Below are positions 1-20,396 of a DNA stretch of 46,318 nt, piece after piece. Each line of letters begins with the position of its first letter. The stretch's first letter is position 1. The position numbers and the translations under genes are program-made. A model generated the notes under the pieces. That model did no database searches and was not told the origin of the DNA. It saw nothing but the letters and a program-made list of their open reading frames with translations. Source of the stretch: an uncultured Muribaculaceae bacterium (GTDB taxonomy: Bacteria > Bacteroidota > Bacteroidia > Bacteroidales > Muribaculaceae); contig CANQZK010000002.1 of the NCBI GenBank assembly GCA_947628285.1, positions 1 through 46,318 on the forward strand. Direction: 5' to 3'.

Positions 1-23
1 GATGACCTGGCGAGTTCTTAATT

Positions 24-461
24 TTAGCCTACGGAGGGGAGAATCTGAAAAGTCAACACTTTTTCAGCGCCCTCGTAACGCTCGCTGGTTATTATATCCT
101 TGCTCTTTTGGGCTTGGTCAAGCGACACATCGCTGCTGTAGGAGCTGGAAATAACGCGCAAACTGGGGTCTTGTGTCCACAGCCATGCAGGGAACATGAT
201 AGTTACAATGGTGCTTTTGGTTGTTCCGGGGGGTATGTTGATAATTATGTCGTAGGGCTTTGGCAGGCGGTTTACAATGTAGTAGGCCAGCTTTTGCAGT
301 TCCTCGCACAGGTAGGCAATGTGCCAGTTAAACACAGGCTCTTCGGGTATAATAACCGACCAAAACGTTTCCACAAAACAGTAGAAACGCTTCCTGCACA
401 TTAGAGCCTGCACCTTATCCAGCAGCTCGTTTGTGGGCTGTATTATCTTACCCTTTGCCAT
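24..461 (-). CDS. Phage terminase large subunit, N-terminal part (frame ends near window edge)
   Basis: Walker A-like IIINIPPGTTKSTIVTIMFPAWLWTQDPSLRVISSSYSSDVSLDQAQKSKDIITSERY typical of TerL; stop at 24 soon after SERY. Confidence 0.85.
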   Translation of the reverse strand: MAKGKIIQPTNELLDKVQALMCRKRFYCFVETFWSVIIPEEPVFNWHIAYLCEELQKLAYYIVNRLPKPYDIIINIPPGTTKSTIVTIMFPAWLWTQDPSLRVISSSYSSDVSLDQAQKSKDIITSERYEGAEKVLTFQILPSVG

Positions 462-1689: not shown

Positions 1690-1959
1690 TTACAGGGTTA
1701 TTGTTGCTCCTATGGCTGCGCCCACAGCACCGCCTGCAACAGTGGCCAGCATATCGAATATGTCAAAAAAGGCTATGCGCATACTGTGGTATGCCATATC
1801 CTTGACCTCGGCTGCTACACCAGCCGCGCCAGCGCACAGCAGCCCACAGGTAAACGCTGGCCAGTAGGTACAGCCAGCATACGTTACGGCCAGCAGCATT
1901 GCGCCGACAATGGCCGCAATAGCACCGCAAATAAGGTGCTTAATTTTGTCCTTTCTCAT
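1690..1959 (-). CDS. Small membrane protein, YfiM-like
   Basis: DKIKH...G...AxxxAGxxxEVKD...D...DMLATVAGGAVGAAIG pattern; strongly hydrophobic. Confidence 0.45.
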   Translation of the reverse strand: MRKDKIKHLICGAIAAIVGAMLLAVTYAGCTYWPAFTCGLLCAGAAGVAAEVKDMAYHSMRIAFFDIFDMLATVAGGAVGAAIGATITL

Positions 1960-2552
1960 TTCATTTGGTTTATTAGGTTCATAAACTCAGCCCTTAACGC
2001 ACTGTCGGTTTGGAACAGGCCAGTTAAGCAGCTGCTTACCATTTCGCCTTTCTTACGCGCTCCGCGCATGGTCTTGCACAGGTGTTCGCCACGCATTACC
2101 AGCGCAATGCCCAGCGGTGGATATTCGCCGCCCAGTGCATCGCCCAGCATTTCCACCACCTCATGTGTAAGCCGTTCCTGCACCTGTAGTTTGGCCGCGC
2201 AATAGTCCACCACGCGCCCGATTTTGGAAATGCCCAGTATTTTGCCTTTGGGGTGTGGCAGGTAGGCGAAATAATACTTGCCAAAGAAAGGCATCATGTG
2301 GTGTTCACAGCAGCTGTAAAAGTCGCCTGTGTCCACTACCATGCTGTCGTACACAATGCCGTCCTCGCCGTTGGGGAACGTTGTTATGTTCGGCTTTTGG
2401 GCTGGGTTATAGCCCCTGTATATTTCGGCATACATACGCGCAACGCGCTTGGGCGTGTCCTGTAGCCCTGTGCGCTGTGGGTTGTCACCGATAAGCTCCA
2501 GCAGTTCCTGTACCAGCTGGGCTATTCGTTGCTCTTTTTGTCCTTTTTCCAT
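1956..2552 (-). CDS. folE: GTP cyclohydrolase I
   Basis: TPKRVARMYAEIYRGY, SCCEHHMMPFFGKYYFAYLPHPKGKILGISKIGR, QVQERLTHEV; start chosen at MEKGQKEQR. Confidence 0.92.
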   Translation of the reverse strand: MEKGQKEQRIAQLVQELLELIGDNPQRTGLQDTPKRVARMYAEIYRGYNPAQKPNITTFPNGEDGIVYDSMVVDTGDFYSCCEHHMMPFFGKYYFAYLPHPKGKILGISKIGRVVDYCAAKLQVQERLTHEVVEMLGDALGGEYPPLGIALVMRGEHLCKTMRGARKKGEMVSSCLTGLFQTDSALRAEFMNLINQMK

Positions 2553-2692
2553 TGGTCGTATGTTTTGCAAAGCGTTTGCAGCGTGTACTGGCTCATAGGC
2601 ACAACACGGAGACCACCAGCATAACCCACGCTGGCAAACGCTGCTTTGAATATCTGCCAAAACAGGTGCTTATAACTCGTCTGCTTGGGCAT
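2522..2692 (-). CDS. 56-aa hypothetical protein within the deazapurine operon
   Basis: MPKQTSYKHLFWQIFKAAFASVGYAGGLRVVPMSQYTLQTLCKTYDQWKKDKKSNE; overlaps the start of folE and end of queD. Confidence 0.5.
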   Translation of the reverse strand: MPKQTSYKHLFWQIFKAAFASVGYAGGLRVVPMSQYTLQTLCKTYDQWKKDKKSNE

Positions 2693-3026
2693 TGTTGTGG
2701 CTGGTATAAATTGCAACATTGCCCTCGCTTTCCTGCACCTTGCATTTGTAGCACTGGGGTATGCGCTGCACCACCCAGCGTGCGATGTTTTCCGCTGTAG
2801 GGTTGAAGCCCAGCACCTCATTAAGGTTGCTGTGGTCTAACTTGCCGTGTATGGCATTTTTGATATGCTTGAAGTCGCACACCATGCCGTCAGCGTTTAG
2901 CTTTTTGGCCTTGCAGTACACTGTTATAATCCAGTTATGGCCATGCAGGCCACCACAGGGGCTGTCATAGCTTAATTGCAGCCTGTGGCACGCTGCAATT
3001 TCCATTCGCTTTGAAACGTAATACAT
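2670..3026 (-). CDS. queD: 6-carboxytetrahydropterin synthase (QueD)
   Basis: ACHRLQ...CGGLHGHNWIITVY...GMVCDFKHIK...LDHSNLNE...PTAENIARWV; QueD/PTPS hallmarks. Confidence 0.9.
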   Translation of the reverse strand: MYYVSKRMEIAACHRLQLSYDSPCGGLHGHNWIITVYCKAKKLNADGMVCDFKHIKNAIHGKLDHSNLNEVLGFNPTAENIARWVVQRIPQCYKCKVQESEGNVAIYTSHNNAQADEL

Positions 3027-3028
3027 GG

Positions 3029-3613
3029 TTATTCTATGCCGATAAATTTGTGCCACTGCATACCCAGCCGCCAGCTGGGGTGTTCCGTTACCAGCGTAAG
3101 GCAGTGGGCGATATTGTCTTTGTTGGGTTGCTCGCCGTCAAAGCAGGGCGACAGGAAATAATGCCGTGCAAACTTGTGTGGCACAGGCATAGGGTCGCCA
3201 GCCTTTACCACATAGCGAAGCTCGTCTATGTTGTCGGGGGCTATCTTGGCGGTCTTGGGGCTGCACACAATGTAATCCACGCCATCGGGCACAGGGAGCA
3301 GGCCGTTTGTTTCTATGCTAATAAACCAGCCGTAACGTTTGAACTCGGCGATTAGCCAGCTGTCCAGCTGTAGTGTTGGCTCGCCACCGCACAGGCTCAC
3401 ACTGGCACAGCGGTTGCCGATGCGCCTGCACTCCTGCACAATTTCGTGTGCTGTCATTTCCTTGTAGCTGCTGGCATGGTCGGTGTCGCAGAAAGGACAA
3501 TGCAGGTTACAGCCGCTAAAGCGCACAAACACCTGTGGAGTGCCTACACGTGCGCCCTCGCCCTGTATGCTGTAAAAGATTTTGTTTACCTTGTAGGTCT
3601 TTTCAGTATTCAT
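3029..3613 (-). CDS. queE: 7-carboxy-7-deazaguanine synthase, radical SAM (QueE)
   Basis: FYSIQGEGARVGTPQVFVRFSGCNLHCPFCDTDH (CX3CX2C), SLCGGEPTLQ. Confidence 0.92.
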   Translation of the reverse strand: MNTEKTYKVNKIFYSIQGEGARVGTPQVFVRFSGCNLHCPFCDTDHASSYKEMTAHEIVQECRRIGNRCASVSLCGGEPTLQLDSWLIAEFKRYGWFISIETNGLLPVPDGVDYIVCSPKTAKIAPDNIDELRYVVKAGDPMPVPHKFARHYFLSPCFDGEQPNKDNIAHCLTLVTEHPSWRLGMQWHKFIGIE

Positions 3614-3633
3614 ATTGTTGGGGGTTAAATTGG

Positions 3634-4449
3634 TTACATATTATCCCTGCACCAGCGTTGGTAAAGCACCCACTGGTCAAAGTTGTTTTGGGCTGCTGCC
3701 ATTGTTATCAGCTTCTTGCCTTCGGGGGCTTTGGTCTTGCCCATTACGCCTGTGCGAGGGTCAAAGTGGTACACAAAGCCGCCCAAATTGCCAGCCAGCC
3801 ATGCAGTGCTATCACAGCTGTAAAACCTGTGGCGGTGCTGCTGCCATACGCTTATCGCTGTAAGCCCCAGTCCATGCACCTTACAGCCATGCTCTGCGGC
3901 CACGTCCAAAAACCAGCCCAGCTGCGCATACTTGTGCGCCTTAAACCAGCTTGTTGTTTTGGTAGCACCGCCCAGCGACAGGCTGGCATAAGGGTACTCC
4001 TTGCAAATGTCTATCCACGCCTGCTTGCCCCTGCACGTGTGCCAGCATGGTATTGGCTGCATACCTGTGCGCCGTTCCATACGCTCGCGCAAACGCCGTG
4101 CGTCCTCCACGCTGGCCACCCAGTCAATATCCATTTCCACAAAGTTCTTTATGCCGTTGCCCAGCACCCAGTCGCAATATTCGTCCGTGTACCGTTCCCA
4201 GTTCACAGCATACTTATCGTCCTGCATAAAGGTAAATGCGCCGCTATCAATTAGCAGGTTGCAGGCGTTGCTGTTTTGGATTACAGGGTATTTCTTATTC
4301 TTGCGTGCATAGTAAAAACTTTGCAGCAGGTTTATGCGCTTGGGGTCGTTGTGCAGCCTGTCGGGTTGCTGGTAACGTGTCAACGGTGTATCGGGGCTTA
4401 AGCCCATCATGCGTATGTAGTCAAACTCGCCAGCCAAATACAGTTCCAT
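3634..4449 (-). CDS. DpdA-like (TGT-fold) DNA 7-deazaguanine transglycosylase
   Basis: NLLIDSGAFTFMQD (cf. TGT DSGGFQ), FVEMDIDWVA, IPCWHTCRG, HGLGLT, YSCDSTAWLAGNLGG; operonic with queE/queD/folE. Confidence 0.8.
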   Translation of the reverse strand: MELYLAGEFDYIRMMGLSPDTPLTRYQQPDRLHNDPKRINLLQSFYYARKNKKYPVIQNSNACNLLIDSGAFTFMQDDKYAVNWERYTDEYCDWVLGNGIKNFVEMDIDWVASVEDARRLRERMERRTGMQPIPCWHTCRGKQAWIDICKEYPYASLSLGGATKTTSWFKAHKYAQLGWFLDVAAEHGCKVHGLGLTAISVWQQHRHRFYSCDSTAWLAGNLGGFVYHFDPRTGVMGKTKAPEGKKLITMAAAQNNFDQWVLYQRWCRDNM

Positions 4450-4459
4450 AGCACCTGCG

Positions 4460-5116
4460 TTATTTAACCTTTACACCTGCATAATCGGCCACAGCAGCCT
4501 CCACCACCTGCCTTATTTCCTCCAGCTCGGCCTCCAACTCCTGTGGCACGCTAACAAGCACGTGCAGCCCCTTTTCTTTGTTGCCGCTGTTGTCAGCGTC
4601 AGTAAAAAAGCTGTCTATGTCCGTGTCTGTGTTATGCCATATATCCATGCCCCACTCGGCCAGCAAGTCGTTATCCCACTCGTTTGCCAGCTTGTCAAAA
4701 TCGTTTTTGCCAAAGCTGACGTTATCCTTAATCACAAACTCGGCCTTTTCTGCATCCGTAAGGTCTGCACCCAAATACACCTTTACCAGTGGCCGCTGCT
4801 GCCACTTTGTCCAGTATTCCAGCAGCTCCTGCTGTTCAAACTGGGTCATGCGCTTAAACTTGGTTTGCTTGTTGAGCGCGTCCAGTATGGCCTGCTGGCT
4901 CATTTGCTGTATAAGCAGCATGGCACGTATGCGCATATTGCCGCCATACACCACGTGCGTTACAGCGTCTATTACTGGGGGGCGAAGTGCCAGCATTTTA
5001 GGGAACACCAAAATGCTCTGCACCAGCAGCTCCATTTTGTCGTCCGTTATCTCACGGGGGTTGTTGGCATTAAGGACAATATCCGTAAGCAGCATATTTT
5101 TAAGGTCGTTTGCCAT
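4460..5116 (-). CDS. ParB-like domain protein (possible DpdB-like partner)
   Basis: LTDIVLNANNPREITDDKMELLVQSILVFPKMLALRPPVIDAVTHVVYGGNMRIRAMLL; first gene of the deazapurine operon. Confidence 0.75.
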   Translation of the reverse strand: MANDLKNMLLTDIVLNANNPREITDDKMELLVQSILVFPKMLALRPPVIDAVTHVVYGGNMRIRAMLLIQQMSQQAILDALNKQTKFKRMTQFEQQELLEYWTKWQQRPLVKVYLGADLTDAEKAEFVIKDNVSFGKNDFDKLANEWDNDLLAEWGMDIWHNTDTDIDSFFTDADNSGNKEKGLHVLVSVPQELEAELEEIRQVVEAAVADYAGVKVK

Positions 5117-5142
5117 TGTCGTACATAAAATTTGCGTACAAA

Positions 5143-5186
5143 GTTAAGGCACAAAGCGTGTTTATTCTTCACGTTTTGTGCCTAAC
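5143..5186. promoter_or_regulatory. Long imperfect inverted repeat adjoining a TAnnTTTG box upstream of the ParB-like/DpdA operon (operator candidate)
   Basis: GTTAAGGCACAAAGCGTG-tttattctt-CACGTTTTGTGCCTAAC; minus strand has TAACTTTG directly next to it, between the repeat and the ATG at 5116. Confidence 0.55.
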
Positions 5187-5264
5187 TTTTGAAAGTAAAA
5201 TGAACTTTTGGCTTTTTGCCTATTTAGCCCATAGTTCCTGCTTGCATACCTGCATAAATTCCTC

Positions 5265-5558
5265 TTAACTGTGGCAAACATGGTAATGGTGTCCCAGTGC
5301 CTTAACGTGCTTTTCAAACTCTACCTGTTTGTGCGTTTGCTTGCCTTTGGGCGTTTTCATTTCCACGTATATGTGCCTGTCTTTTGTTACTATTACCAAA
5401 TCGGCCACGCCTGCCATTGCTCCCTCGGCCTTTAGCTTTGCGGCCACTACTGCATTACGCTGGCCACCATTTGGCACTGCGTAAATAAGCAGGTTGGGAA
5501 ACTGGTAGCGGAAATAATTTACACAGGCCACCTGTATGTTATGCTCTATTTCCTGCAT
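5265..5558 (-). CDS. VRR-NUC domain nuclease
   Basis: YAVPNGGQRNAVVAAKLKAEGAMAGVADLVIV...IYVEMKTPKGKQTHKQVEF. Confidence 0.88.
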   Translation of the reverse strand: MQEIEHNIQVACVNYFRYQFPNLLIYAVPNGGQRNAVVAAKLKAEGAMAGVADLVIVTKDRHIYVEMKTPKGKQTHKQVEFEKHVKALGHHYHVCHS

Positions 5559-5579
5559 TTTTGTGGTGGTTACAGGTTT

Positions 5580-5996
5580 TTAGTAAGGGCATTCATCGGT
5601 ATTATACCCAGCGTATGCACCTGCGCTTGGCTGCTGGGGTTGCTGCTGTTGCGCATCGCCGTTTTTAAGCAGCACAATGTTTTCGGCGATTATTTCCGTT
5701 ATGTAGCGTTTTTGATGCTGCTCGTTTTCATACGAGCGATAACGGATTTTGCCCTCTACATACACCTGCGAGCCTTGCAGCAGGTAGCGTTCCACTATTG
5801 TTGCCAGCCCAGCCCATGCGACCACGTTGTGCCACTCCGTGCGTGCTGGTACTTGCTCGCCAGTCTGCTTGTTGGTAAAGGCAGGTTCGGTGGTAGCCAG
5901 TGAAAACTGCGCTACCTTTGCACCACTGGCCAGCGTTCTTACATCGGGCGTTTTGCCCACGTTCCCTATTAGGGTTGCTCTATTCAAACTTCCCAT
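5580..5996 (-). CDS. ssb: Single-stranded DNA-binding protein
   Basis: MGSLNRATLIGNVGKTPDVRTL...AQFSLATTE...TEWHNVVAWAGLATIVERYLLQGSQVYVEGKIRYRSYE. Confidence 0.95.
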   Translation of the reverse strand: MGSLNRATLIGNVGKTPDVRTLASGAKVAQFSLATTEPAFTNKQTGEQVPARTEWHNVVAWAGLATIVERYLLQGSQVYVEGKIRYRSYENEQHQKRYITEIIAENIVLLKNGDAQQQQPQQPSAGAYAGYNTDECPY

Positions 5997-16859: not shown

Positions 16860-17417
16860 TTAGTTGTTGGCGAATAGGTTATTTTCGGCTGCATAGCGGT
16901 TAAACTCGGCCATGCTGTGTACGCCCAGCTTGCGAAAACTGGCTTTTCGGTGGTTTGCTACAGTGTTGATGCTGATAAACAGGCGTTCTGCTATGTCGGT
17001 ATCGCTTACGCCCTCATAGCACAGGCGCATTACTTCCAGCTGGCGTTCGCTTAATTTGCTGTTGAATACAGGCTGGCACAGTATTTTGTCATACTTGCAC
17101 TCGCCGCGCAACGGACAACTTACAAACTCAAAGTGGAAATTACCGTTGCCGTCTACATCAATTTCGTTGTCATATACACCGAAATTGCATTTAATAAACC
17201 TGCGCACGGCCAAATAATCCCTGTAGCTTTTATTGGGCAATGTTTTACTGTATAGCTCCATAAGCGCATCATAAGCCTGTGGGTAATACTCGCGCACGGT
17301 GCTTAACATTGCCTGTATAAAGTCGTAGTCGGTTTCCTTAAGTTGTCGTTCAGCTTGGCCAACTTCGCGCAATGTTACCTCGCCCTCGGGCGTTGTGTAA
17401 AACTCTACCCCTCGCAT
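16860..17417 (-). CDS. LuxR/GerE-type HTH transcriptional regulator
   Basis: C-term LSERQLEVMRLCYEGVSDTDIAERLFISINTVANHRKASFRKLGVHSMAEFNRYA. Confidence 0.87.
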   Translation of the reverse strand: MRGVEFYTTPEGEVTLREVGQAERQLKETDYDFIQAMLSTVREYYPQAYDALMELYSKTLPNKSYRDYLAVRRFIKCNFGVYDNEIDVDGNGNFHFEFVSCPLRGECKYDKILCQPVFNSKLSERQLEVMRLCYEGVSDTDIAERLFISINTVANHRKASFRKLGVHSMAEFNRYAAENNLFANN

Positions 17418-17674
17418 ACTGGTGTAGGAAATAACTGTTCTTCACTATATCCCAGCCTTTCGGCTATTAGCTTGCGTTTCAACGCATCGGGTCGTTGTAC
17501 CCCTTGTATCCACATACGTACAGTTTGCTGGCTGCACATACATAGCTGCGCCATTTCCTCTACGAAAGCCTGCTTGGGGGCTTTTGGCGGTTCGGGCAAT
17601 GCCCGATACAGCTCGCCAAAGGTGGGGGCATAGTCCGCTGAGGTCATTTTTTCATCTTTTTTGCTGTTTGCCAT
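17405..17674 (-). CDS. Phage HTH (Cro/XRE-like) regulator
   Basis: FVEEMAQLCMCSQQTVRMWIQGVQRPDALKRKLIAERLGYSEEQLFP; divergent from the repressor-like gene. Confidence 0.6.
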   Translation of the reverse strand: MANSKKDEKMTSADYAPTFGELYRALPEPPKAPKQAFVEEMAQLCMCSQQTVRMWIQGVQRPDALKRKLIAERLGYSEEQLFPTPVCEG

Positions 17675-17727
17675 ATCGTTTTTGGTATTTTTGATGTATC
17701 TTTGCAGTGTTATTAGCTGTGAACGGG

Positions 17728-17747
17728 GCGTTATCAACTATTAACGC
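17728..17747. promoter_or_regulatory. Inverted repeat GCGTTA-N8-TAACGC near the predicted TSS of the leftward early operon (operator candidate)
   Basis: gcgttatcaactattaacgc, directly downstream of the leftward promoter. Confidence 0.5.
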
Positions 17748-18614: not shown

Positions 18615-18927
18615 AGTTAACAGGGGCATTAAGGAAAGGTTTTACAAGGCCATTGTTGCCCTTATAGAAAAAAAGCTGTTAAGGGGTCGGCAAACTTACT
18701 GCAAGCTGTACGACATTGACAAACGCAATTTCTACTCACAGGAAAAGGATTTGCAGGAGGCCAAACTAAAACTGTACTGGCTTGTTCCGTTGGTGGAGCA
18801 TTACGGCATAAGCGCACACTGGCTGCTTACTGGGCAGGGGCGTATGTTTGAACCCAAAGCCCAGCGAAAGCAACGTGCCACCATGTACGACAGGGAAACA
18901 GGCTCGCCCACTACTGGGGAGCAGTAA
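18592..18927 (+). CDS. Hypothetical HTH-like phage protein
   Basis: RQTYCKLYDIDKRNFYSQEKDLQEAKLKLYWLVPLVEHYGISAHWLLTGQGRMFEP. Confidence 0.6.
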   Translation: MPSPASIEVNRGIKERFYKAIVALIEKKLLRGRQTYCKLYDIDKRNFYSQEKDLQEAKLKLYWLVPLVEHYGISAHWLLTGQGRMFEPKAQRKQRATMYDRETGSPTTGEQ

Positions 18928-20176
18928 AGTTTACCAGCTCCAGCACACGCCTGTTCGCCTCGTCCTGCTGGCTGTAATCCTTATCAATGTAAATATCCGT
19001 AATGCGCATTTGCTCGTCTACATGATTTAAGGCTTCGTGTATGGTAGCCTTATCTATATTGGCCTTATTGCGTGCCAGTGTTGCCCATGTATGCCGCGCT
19101 GCGTAAAACTCCAAATCACTTATCTTTACGCTTTCCATTGCCCCTATTAGCTTAAGGCCGCGATTTATGTTGGTACACATGGTTTGATAGCTGGCATAAC
19201 GCCTGTGGAAGTTAAACACCCTTTCGCCAGTAGGGTCAAGGTATTTTTCTACCAAAGGGCGCACGCATGGCTCCACCTTAATACTTATCAGTGCTTCATC
19301 GGCTCGCCTGCTGCGTGTTTTCGTACGCTTATAGGTTATGCGCTCGCCGTCATAGTCCACGGCATTATACAGGTCAACATTATTCATGCCTATAAGGCCA
19401 AAAGACAGCAGGAATAAATCGCGTGCAGTGGTAATTCGGCTGTCCACTGTGTGGCCGTCTTTAACTTGCATTATGGCCTGTAGCTGTTCCACTGTTATAC
19501 TCCGCTTTCGTGTTATCGGGGGCTTTGGCACTTTGAACCGCTTAAAAGGGCTTAACGGTATGCGTATAATGCCTGCGTCCTCGTCATTATAACGCTCTTT
19601 CGCTTTGTTGTGCAGTATACGCACCGCGCCCAAATAAGAACTGGGGGCACGTTCCCCTTTTACCCTGTGGGGGCGTGCTGGCTCGTTTTTTATAAAGGTG
19701 CAAAATTCCTCCAGCAGTTTTACTGTAACCTCGCTTATGTCCAAATGGTCGCGCTTCAAAAAACGTTTAAGGGCTACGAGTGCAGACCTATAGTAACGGC
19801 CAGTACCTACTCGGCCGCAATCCAGCATCTCCTGTACTACCTGCTCGCCAAACTGTATAAAGTCCAGCCTAAATGCGCCATGTTGTTTTTCATAGCTGTT
19901 TATATACTCCAGCACCTCGTCAATTGTCATAACCTCCGCACGCACTTGCGGAATAGTTGCTGCGATGCGCTGGTAACGCTCAACCTCTTTTTTCAGCTGG
20001 TCAGCAATGGCCGCGTCCTTTACCTTTAGCCCACGTGTAAGGTCTTTGGCGGTAACGAATATGTTTGTAGGTATGTGCCGCTTCTGCCTGTTGTGGGTAA
20101 CTCTAATCTTTACGTTGTATGTGCCATCACTTTTGCGGTGGTGGGCATACACAACAGCTTTGAATGTTGTTGCCAT
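18911..20176 (-). CDS. int: Tyrosine recombinase/integrase, Bacteroidetes phage type
   Basis: FLLSFGLIGMNNVDLYNA...SDLEFYAARHTWATLARNKANIDKATIHEALNHVDEQMRITDIYIDKDY; next to the tRNA. Confidence 0.93.
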   Translation of the reverse strand: MATTFKAVVYAHHRKSDGTYNVKIRVTHNRQKRHIPTNIFVTAKDLTRGLKVKDAAIADQLKKEVERYQRIAATIPQVRAEVMTIDEVLEYINSYEKQHGAFRLDFIQFGEQVVQEMLDCGRVGTGRYYRSALVALKRFLKRDHLDISEVTVKLLEEFCTFIKNEPARPHRVKGERAPSSYLGAVRILHNKAKERYNDEDAGIIRIPLSPFKRFKVPKPPITRKRSITVEQLQAIMQVKDGHTVDSRITTARDLFLLSFGLIGMNNVDLYNAVDYDGERITYKRTKTRSRRADEALISIKVEPCVRPLVEKYLDPTGERVFNFHRRYASYQTMCTNINRGLKLIGAMESVKISDLEFYAARHTWATLARNKANIDKATIHEALNHVDEQMRITDIYIDKDYSQQDEANRRVLELVNFTAPQ

Positions 20177-20317: not shown

Positions 20318-20324
20318 TTAAATG

Positions 20325-20396
20325 TACTCCCGAAGGGAATCGAACCCTTATCATTGGAACCGGAATCCAGTATTCTATCCATTGAACTACAGGAGC
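20325..20396 (-). tRNA. tRNA-Arg (anticodon CCG)
   Basis: GCTCCTG TA GTTC AATGGATA GAAT A CTGGA TTCCGGT TCCAA TGAT AAGGG TTCGATT CCCTT CGGGAGT A; cloverleaf folded by hand; no encoded CCA. Confidence 0.88.

Follow-up and report, generated by a model that had tools for sequence, protein, structure and literature searches.

Background

Phage DpdA enzymes, the transglycosylases that install 7-deazaguanine bases in DNA, are usually described as acting alone. In phage CAjan, DpdA installs dPreQ0, and CAjan DNA made without dpdA loses both the base and its protection from restriction (PMC6884629), while in Rosebush DNA dPreQ0 is found in ~28% of G (PMC6884629). The DpdB of bacterial Dpd systems has been described as an ATPase of ParB-like type (PMC12839542), and phages also have ParB-like domains next to, or inside, methyltransferase genes (PMC12704722, PMC12783734). 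The pairing of a ParB-like gene with dpdA has been noted once before, in mycobacteriophage CRB2, whose authors propose the ParB open reading frame (ORF) beside DpdA as a DpdB homologue and link the first six genes of their phage with phages of subcluster B2 (PMC6392294). A 2025 survey of the ParB-CTPase fold reports phage methyltransferase fusions, and its text is without queuine, transglycosylase or deazaguanine terms (PMC12704722). A clade-wide ParB–DpdA pairing was not found described in the searchable literature, though key papers on 7-deazaguanine in DNA may describe it. Here we analyse such a pairing in a five-gene prophage cassette located on contig CANQZK010000002.1 (positions 1 to 46,318, hereafter the window) of the metagenome-assembled genome (MAG) of an uncultured Muribaculaceae bacterium (GCA_947628285.1).

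A predicted DNA-modification cassette with a ParB-like gene

The reading that we consider likely is that a temperate phage carries a cassette which would make a 7-deazaguanine from GTP, with DpdA installing this base in DNA and the ParB-like protein acting as a dedicated partner of DpdA. Judging from gene content, the genes of this phage, dormant in the genome of a gut Bacteroidales-type host, very probably replace some guanines of the phage's own DNA with a 7-deazaguanine base. From the gene identities, fold, catalytic motifs, gene pairing, purifying selection and integration site described below, we infer the enzymatic activity, the identity of the base, the role of the ParB-like protein and the protection of DNA. 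In the proposed mechanism, FolE, QueD and QueE would convert GTP to 7-carboxy-7-deazaguanine (CDG), DpdA would swap guanine in DNA for a deazaguanine base, and the ParB-like protein would most likely be a nucleoside triphosphate (NTP)-switched DNA clamp with the task of loading DpdA onto DNA or of targeting it. By analogy with other phages, the likely use of the modification would be to shield phage DNA from restriction in lytic growth.

A sequence-only reading had placed five minus-strand genes at 1956-5116, and all five are confirmed as ORFs with family matches. The first in the direction of transcription encodes the ParB-like protein (4460-5116; PHROG 498, 1e-14; PHROG 620, 3e-12), followed by DpdA (3634-4449; PHROG 887, 4e-36), a predicted DNA-guanine transglycosylase. 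QueE, the 7-carboxy-7-deazaguanine synthase (3029-3613), is a radical S-adenosylmethionine (SAM) enzyme with a CX3CX2C motif (PF04055 Radical_SAM, 4.4e-13; PHROG 2076, 5e-33); it is 52% identical to the QueE of the host and matches TIGR04508 at 2e-39, yet under that model's cut-off. Matches of this QueE to pVip (viperin) in PADLOC were rejected as general radical-SAM matches. QueD, the 6-carboxytetrahydropterin synthase with its CxxxHGH motif (2670-3056; probable start at the ATG at 3023), matches PF01242 PTPS at 9.3e-28 and reaches 84 bits against a cut-off of 89 for TIGR03367. FolE, GTP cyclohydrolase I (1956-2552), matches PF01227 at 6.6e-54 and NF006826 with 191 bits (cut-off 162); a longer FolE ORF with a TTG start begins at 2660. 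The motifs CNLHCPFC in QueE, CGGLHGH in QueD and CEHHMMPF in FolE were read directly in the sequence, and the earlier identifications of these three enzymes hold.

The same cassette is present in three related loci (L003, L011 and L012), with the gene order of the window in L011. Across these comparisons, dN/dS is 0.04-0.23 for all five genes (ParB-like 0.13-0.22, DpdA 0.08-0.10, QueD 0.04-0.09), and all five are thus under purifying selection. Between queD and folE lies a small ORF of 56 aa (2522-2692, minus strand) which is conserved in L011. A DUF6527 gene (PF20137) is found between queE and queD in L003 (L003:6422-6703) and L012 (L012:9419-9703), and not in the window or L011.

DpdA has a predicted transglycosylase fold and belongs to a distant clade

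An AlphaFold (AF2) model of DpdA, built from a 39-row alignment, reached a predicted local distance difference test (pLDDT) score of 83.5. When this model was compared with the PDB by Foldseek, the six best matches were TGT structures, and the matches included 7ui4, the solved DNA preQ0 insertase (a bacterial DpdA), at E 8e-4. Residues D68, D107 and D213 are invariant across the 39 sequences, with D68 in DSGAFT and D213 in SCDST, the two motifs that the sequence-only reading had pointed out in this protein. By its modelled fold, the protein encoded at 3634-4449 is a transglycosylase, with the TGT fold and the catalytic aspartate motifs DSGxF and SxDS. Together with the enzyme identities, this predicted fold and its conserved aspartates bear out the DNA-modification cassette that had been proposed. 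No cysteine is conserved throughout the DpdA alignment (the best Cys column is filled in 28 of 39 rows), so that the enzyme probably lacks the TGT zinc site. A Pfam match of DpdA to NucA/NucB stayed below the cut-off (2e-4), was seen in 2 of 39 members and was rejected as chance.

A DpdA profile search of viral contigs yielded 80 relatives. In the resulting tree, from which DpdA3, DpdA4 and bacterial DpdA sequences were left out, 58 rows including the window form a separate clade apart from the Queuovirinae (9g-type) DpdA, Dp-1 and Sonali/Funsized (support 100/99), on a branch of 3.4 that calls for long-branch caution. The window DpdA grouped with neither DpdA1 (9g type) nor DpdA2 (Dp-1 type) in this tree. 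On this phylogeny, it belongs to a clade far from the classical phage DpdA1 and DpdA2. In the window, dpdA is linked to the 7-deazaguanine genes for FolE, QueD and QueE; in relatives it comes with genes for FolE, QueD, QueE and QueC, for a precursor transporter, or for both.

A ParB-like gene lies beside dpdA across the clade

Among 73 loci with ≥400 bp of upstream sequence, dpdA is directly preceded by a ParB-like ORF in 64, and in the other nine this ORF is found within 700 bp or overlapping in all except L069. After loci were collapsed at 85% identity, 49 of 55 had a same-strand ParB-like gene no more than 700 bp ahead of dpdA; five of the six remaining loci have <240 bp of upstream sequence, which leaves 49 of the 50 with enough sequence. 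ParB-like ORFs elsewhere in these loci are few. Judged by gene order, this DpdA clade is marked by its pairing with ParB, a feature that the sequence-only reading had missed. Outside the clade, ParB genes were found at the dpdA/que cluster of the cultivated phages Sonali and Funsized. Within the stretches examined, Cellulophaga phiSM also has a ParB gene, and 9g, MiCath, ALK, Bhz54, RHEph06, ZHS and Dp-1 have none.

ParB_N (PF02195) was matched by 27 of 39 ParB partners, the profile of the partner family matches Spo0J 6sdk at 5.8e-13, and the AF2 model of the window protein (pLDDT 87) has ParB and Noc as its best Foldseek matches, with only a weak E of 3e-3. The Box II arginine (R62), a residue that matters for NTP binding (PMC12704722), is kept in 36 of 39 partners including the window, and the Box II glycine is likewise conserved. 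On the evidence of the models and profiles, the protein has the ParB-CTPase / sulfiredoxin fold. As a single-sequence query, the ParB-like protein gave no match in GenBank phages and none that was confirmed in viral contigs; it was the DpdA profile that succeeded.

Fusobacterium phage phiFN37 (L008) carries three ParB-like genes within 12 kb, one of them immediately upstream of dpdA. G444, a genome from the same family as the window, has a single ParB-like gene with two dpdA copies in tandem behind it (L117:6838-8891).

The inserted base may be CDG or preQ0

QueC has no gene in the window cassette, in which the FolE/QueD/QueE/QueC set of the preQ0 pathway is therefore incomplete. Across 86 loci, 37 carry FolE, QueD, QueE and QueC, 26 a precursor transporter only, and 12 QueC with a transporter, while FolE, QueD and QueE without QueC occur in the window, L003, L011, L068 and L072. 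Because QueC is missing from the window lineage, the base would be either CDG itself or preQ0 finished by the QueC of the host, which would give dPreQ0. The host genome encodes QueC and QueF on one contig (C24), QueD and QueE on another (C65), and a TGT, so that preQ0 is equally possible.

One option is that the phage makes CDG and that a remodelled DpdA inserts it directly as dCDG. The cassettes of the window, L003 and L011 go without QueC where 37 of 86 loci keep the full set, the lack of QueC maps to two separate changes on the DpdA tree, and the branch of the window lineage is long (1.79 vs a median end branch of 0.45). In addition, the DpdA segment aligned to IGGLAVGE of TGT is VAIGGIVxxE for most clade members, whereas the window lineage has LSLGGATKTTS, with two more residues and with Lys and Thr in place of Glu. 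Such a remodelled loop weakly fits a carboxylated base, and the same option was considered for the QueC-less phage Bipper (Hutinet 2019). Against this stand the availability of QueC from the host, the very weak hhalign match (E 0.09) on which the correspondence to TGT depends, and the fact that the loop Glu is not universal, being also absent from some QueC-carrying or transporter-type DpdA and from 9g-type DpdA. The other option is that phage FolE, QueD and QueE raise the flux to CDG, host QueC completes preQ0, and DpdA inserts dPreQ0 or a derivative. The host genes on C24 and C65 favour it, as does the observation that 9g DpdA alone uses host preQ0 in E. coli (PMC6884629), yet it leaves unexplained both the remodelled loop and why many relatives keep a QueC of their own. 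We hold both options to be plausible and give each of them somewhat less than an even chance. Tying the two themes together, with a ParB clamp as the obligatory targeting partner of DpdA in a distinct clade and a QueC-less temperate lineage installing CDG directly, would be a more speculative proposal, which we doubt as a whole.

Other loci differ in gene content. Twelve loci of the ParB-coupled clade (L023, L024, L040, L041, L042, L052, L060, L070, L071, L081, L084, L091) combine QueC with a queuosine-precursor transporter and have no FolE, QueD or QueE in the stretch, as if the substrate of QueC were imported. In L068 (L068:1894-2793), and also in L072, which represent the second lineage without QueC, a protein that resembles a SAM-methyltransferase by sequence only is encoded between dpdA and queD in the place of QueC, overlapping the end of dpdA. 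In L115, a 436-aa QueC ORF (L115:7347-8657) has a C-terminal HNH_3 match (1e-9).

Prophage setting, upstream element and distribution

The cassette lies in an integrated prophage, with an integrase at a tRNA gene and host DNA beyond it. Window bases 1 to ~20,300 form the integrase-side part of the prophage and the remainder is host chromosome. The phage genes form a minus-strand run, from the tyrosine integrase (18911-20176; PHROG 1, 4.5e-18; PF13102, PF17293) through a repressor-like helix-turn-helix regulator (HTH_3; 17405-17737), SbcC-like and endonuclease genes, and RecT, HU, DnaC-like, SSB and VRR nuclease genes, to the cassette, beyond which the terminase genes reach the end of the contig. 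Immediately ahead of the cassette are replication genes (5265-5996) for SSB (5580-5996) and a VRR-NUC protein (5265-5558). The terminase region (24-1128) comprises a gene for a small-subunit-like protein (466-1128) and a large-subunit fragment (24-461) that ends at the contig edge, where window positions 1-71 diverge from the terminase reading frame seen in relatives. The prophage is therefore incomplete here: the large terminase is truncated at that edge, and neither its remainder nor the remaining phage genes were found on any other of the 203 contigs of the MAG. A search of the MAG for a second attachment site found none.

The integration locus is a tRNA-Arg(CCG) gene (20324-20396, minus strand). 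The same phage also occurs in a MAG from another genus of the family (G641), where a homologous integrase lies at this tRNA-Arg(CCG) too and the three host genes that come next are again the same. This agrees with the prophage location given by the sequence-only reading. A more distant relative is embedded in a 194-kb contig (G570); it has ParB, DpdA, QueC, transporter, QueD, QueE and FolE, and on one side it is bordered by an ORF the size of an integrase, beyond which come host-type genes. The sequence-only reading had called the cassette vertically inherited, a claim that the data do not support: window-type DpdA is present in 6 of 397 genomes of the family, in none of the other same-genus genomes listed, and as close copies in other genera of the family. 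With so few of the 397 genomes carrying this DpdA, the cassette belongs to an infecting phage group rather than to a vertically inherited trait.

At the head of the cassette, a conserved hairpin (5139-5190, minus strand) consists of the inverted repeat AGTTAGGCACAAA...TTTGTGCCTTAACT and ends in TAACTTTG, a Bacteroidota -7-like box. The sequence-only reading had not itemised this element or the small ORF at 2522-2692. The hairpin has a predicted energy of -22.3 kcal/mol (z -5.4) and continues into the leader of the ParB gene, which is almost invariant among four relatives; a role as promoter, operator or terminator is conceivable. The exact Bacteroidota promoter pattern was sought in the same place, with the -7-like box as its sole match, and the idea that the 3' arm is a repeated phage operator was rejected, with no further copy in the window. 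The position of the cassette between replication and terminase genes suggests lytic expression, though it has its own conserved upstream element.

Alternative explanations

Several results weigh against a DNA-modifying DpdA with a dedicated ParB-like partner. By sequence alone, DpdA had no credible match in Pfam, NCBIfam or PDB, and the ParB-like protein on its own did not match PF02195, while the NCBIfam DpdB model NF041060 matched neither this protein (at a threshold of E 0.1) nor anything else in its own genome. Classical phage DpdA of the 9g and CAjan type have no neighbouring ParB, and a ParB need therefore not be essential. Moreover, the remaining phage genes are absent from the MAG, and the phage may not be viable.

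Two other explanations were weighed. The cassette could boost the queuosine of host tRNA or the folate supply, with the TGT-like protein acting on tRNA, given that QueE, QueD and FolE double as tRNA-queuosine and folate enzymes and that PHROG 887 carries the name 'queuine tRNA-ribosyltransferase'. We regard this as very unlikely: the host already has a TGT and a queuosine pathway, DpdA is far from TGT by sequence and lacks its conserved zinc cysteines, it is paired with a ParB fold in the replication-to-packaging region of a phage, and its homologue, 9g DpdA, fails to complement an E. coli tgt mutant. Alternatively, the ParB-like protein could be an unrelated neighbour, i.e. a partition protein or regulator with no part in base insertion. 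The frequency of ParB-like domains in phages, including beside or within methyltransferase genes (PMC12704722, PMC12783734), speaks for such a chance neighbourhood, as do the three ParB-like genes of phiFN37, only one of which is next to dpdA. That the two genes are neighbours on one strand in 49 of 50 non-redundant loci with enough sequence, across the whole clade and with few ParB-like ORFs elsewhere in these loci, makes it improbable in our view, and we retain the dedicated partner as the better explanation.

Comparison with known systems

If the ParB-like protein does assist DpdA, phage ParBs that have so far been unexplained orphans would gain a testable role. The QueC-less lineage likewise offers a natural test of what sets the base choice of DpdA, and the temperate setting raises the question of whether lysogen DNA is modified.

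The Queuovirinae phages with DpdA1 (9g, CAjan, MiCath) and the DpdA2 phage Dp-1 share DpdA, FolE, QueD and QueE with the window, and DNA modification is proven in several of them. They differ in carrying QueC or Gat-QueC and in falling in separate DpdA clades, and those examined (9g, MiCath, ALK and Dp-1) have no ParB near dpdA. Mycobacteriophages CRB2 and Funsized resemble the window in having a ParB-superfamily gene close to DpdA and preQ0 genes; unlike it, CRB2, Rosebush (subcluster B) and Funsized carry QueC, and the DpdA of Funsized lies outside the 58-row clade. Arthrobacter phage Sonali (MK411746) has ParB-like, DpdA, QueC, QueD, QueE and FolE genes in a single block, as in the window apart from QueC, although its DpdA is distant (28% identity) and its host is Actinobacterial. 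Bacterial Dpd islands, with DpdA and DpdB and then DpdC, likewise combine a transglycosylase with a ParB-like ATPase, and their DpdA (7ui4) is among the structural matches, whereas in the window cassette NF041060 is not matched and no DpdC or restriction genes were found. Finally, the same type of ParB domain is found with a DNA base-modifying enzyme in phages that fuse a ParB-CTPase module to a DNA methyltransferase, and where ParB genes lie near CmoX (PMC12704722, PMC12783734; PHROG 498). In the window the ParB is instead a separate gene and the enzyme a predicted transglycosylase. A whole clade that keeps a ParB-CTPase-fold gene beside dpdA, taken with these methyltransferase and CmoX pairings, suggests a general NTP-switched loader that serves enzymes modifying DNA bases.

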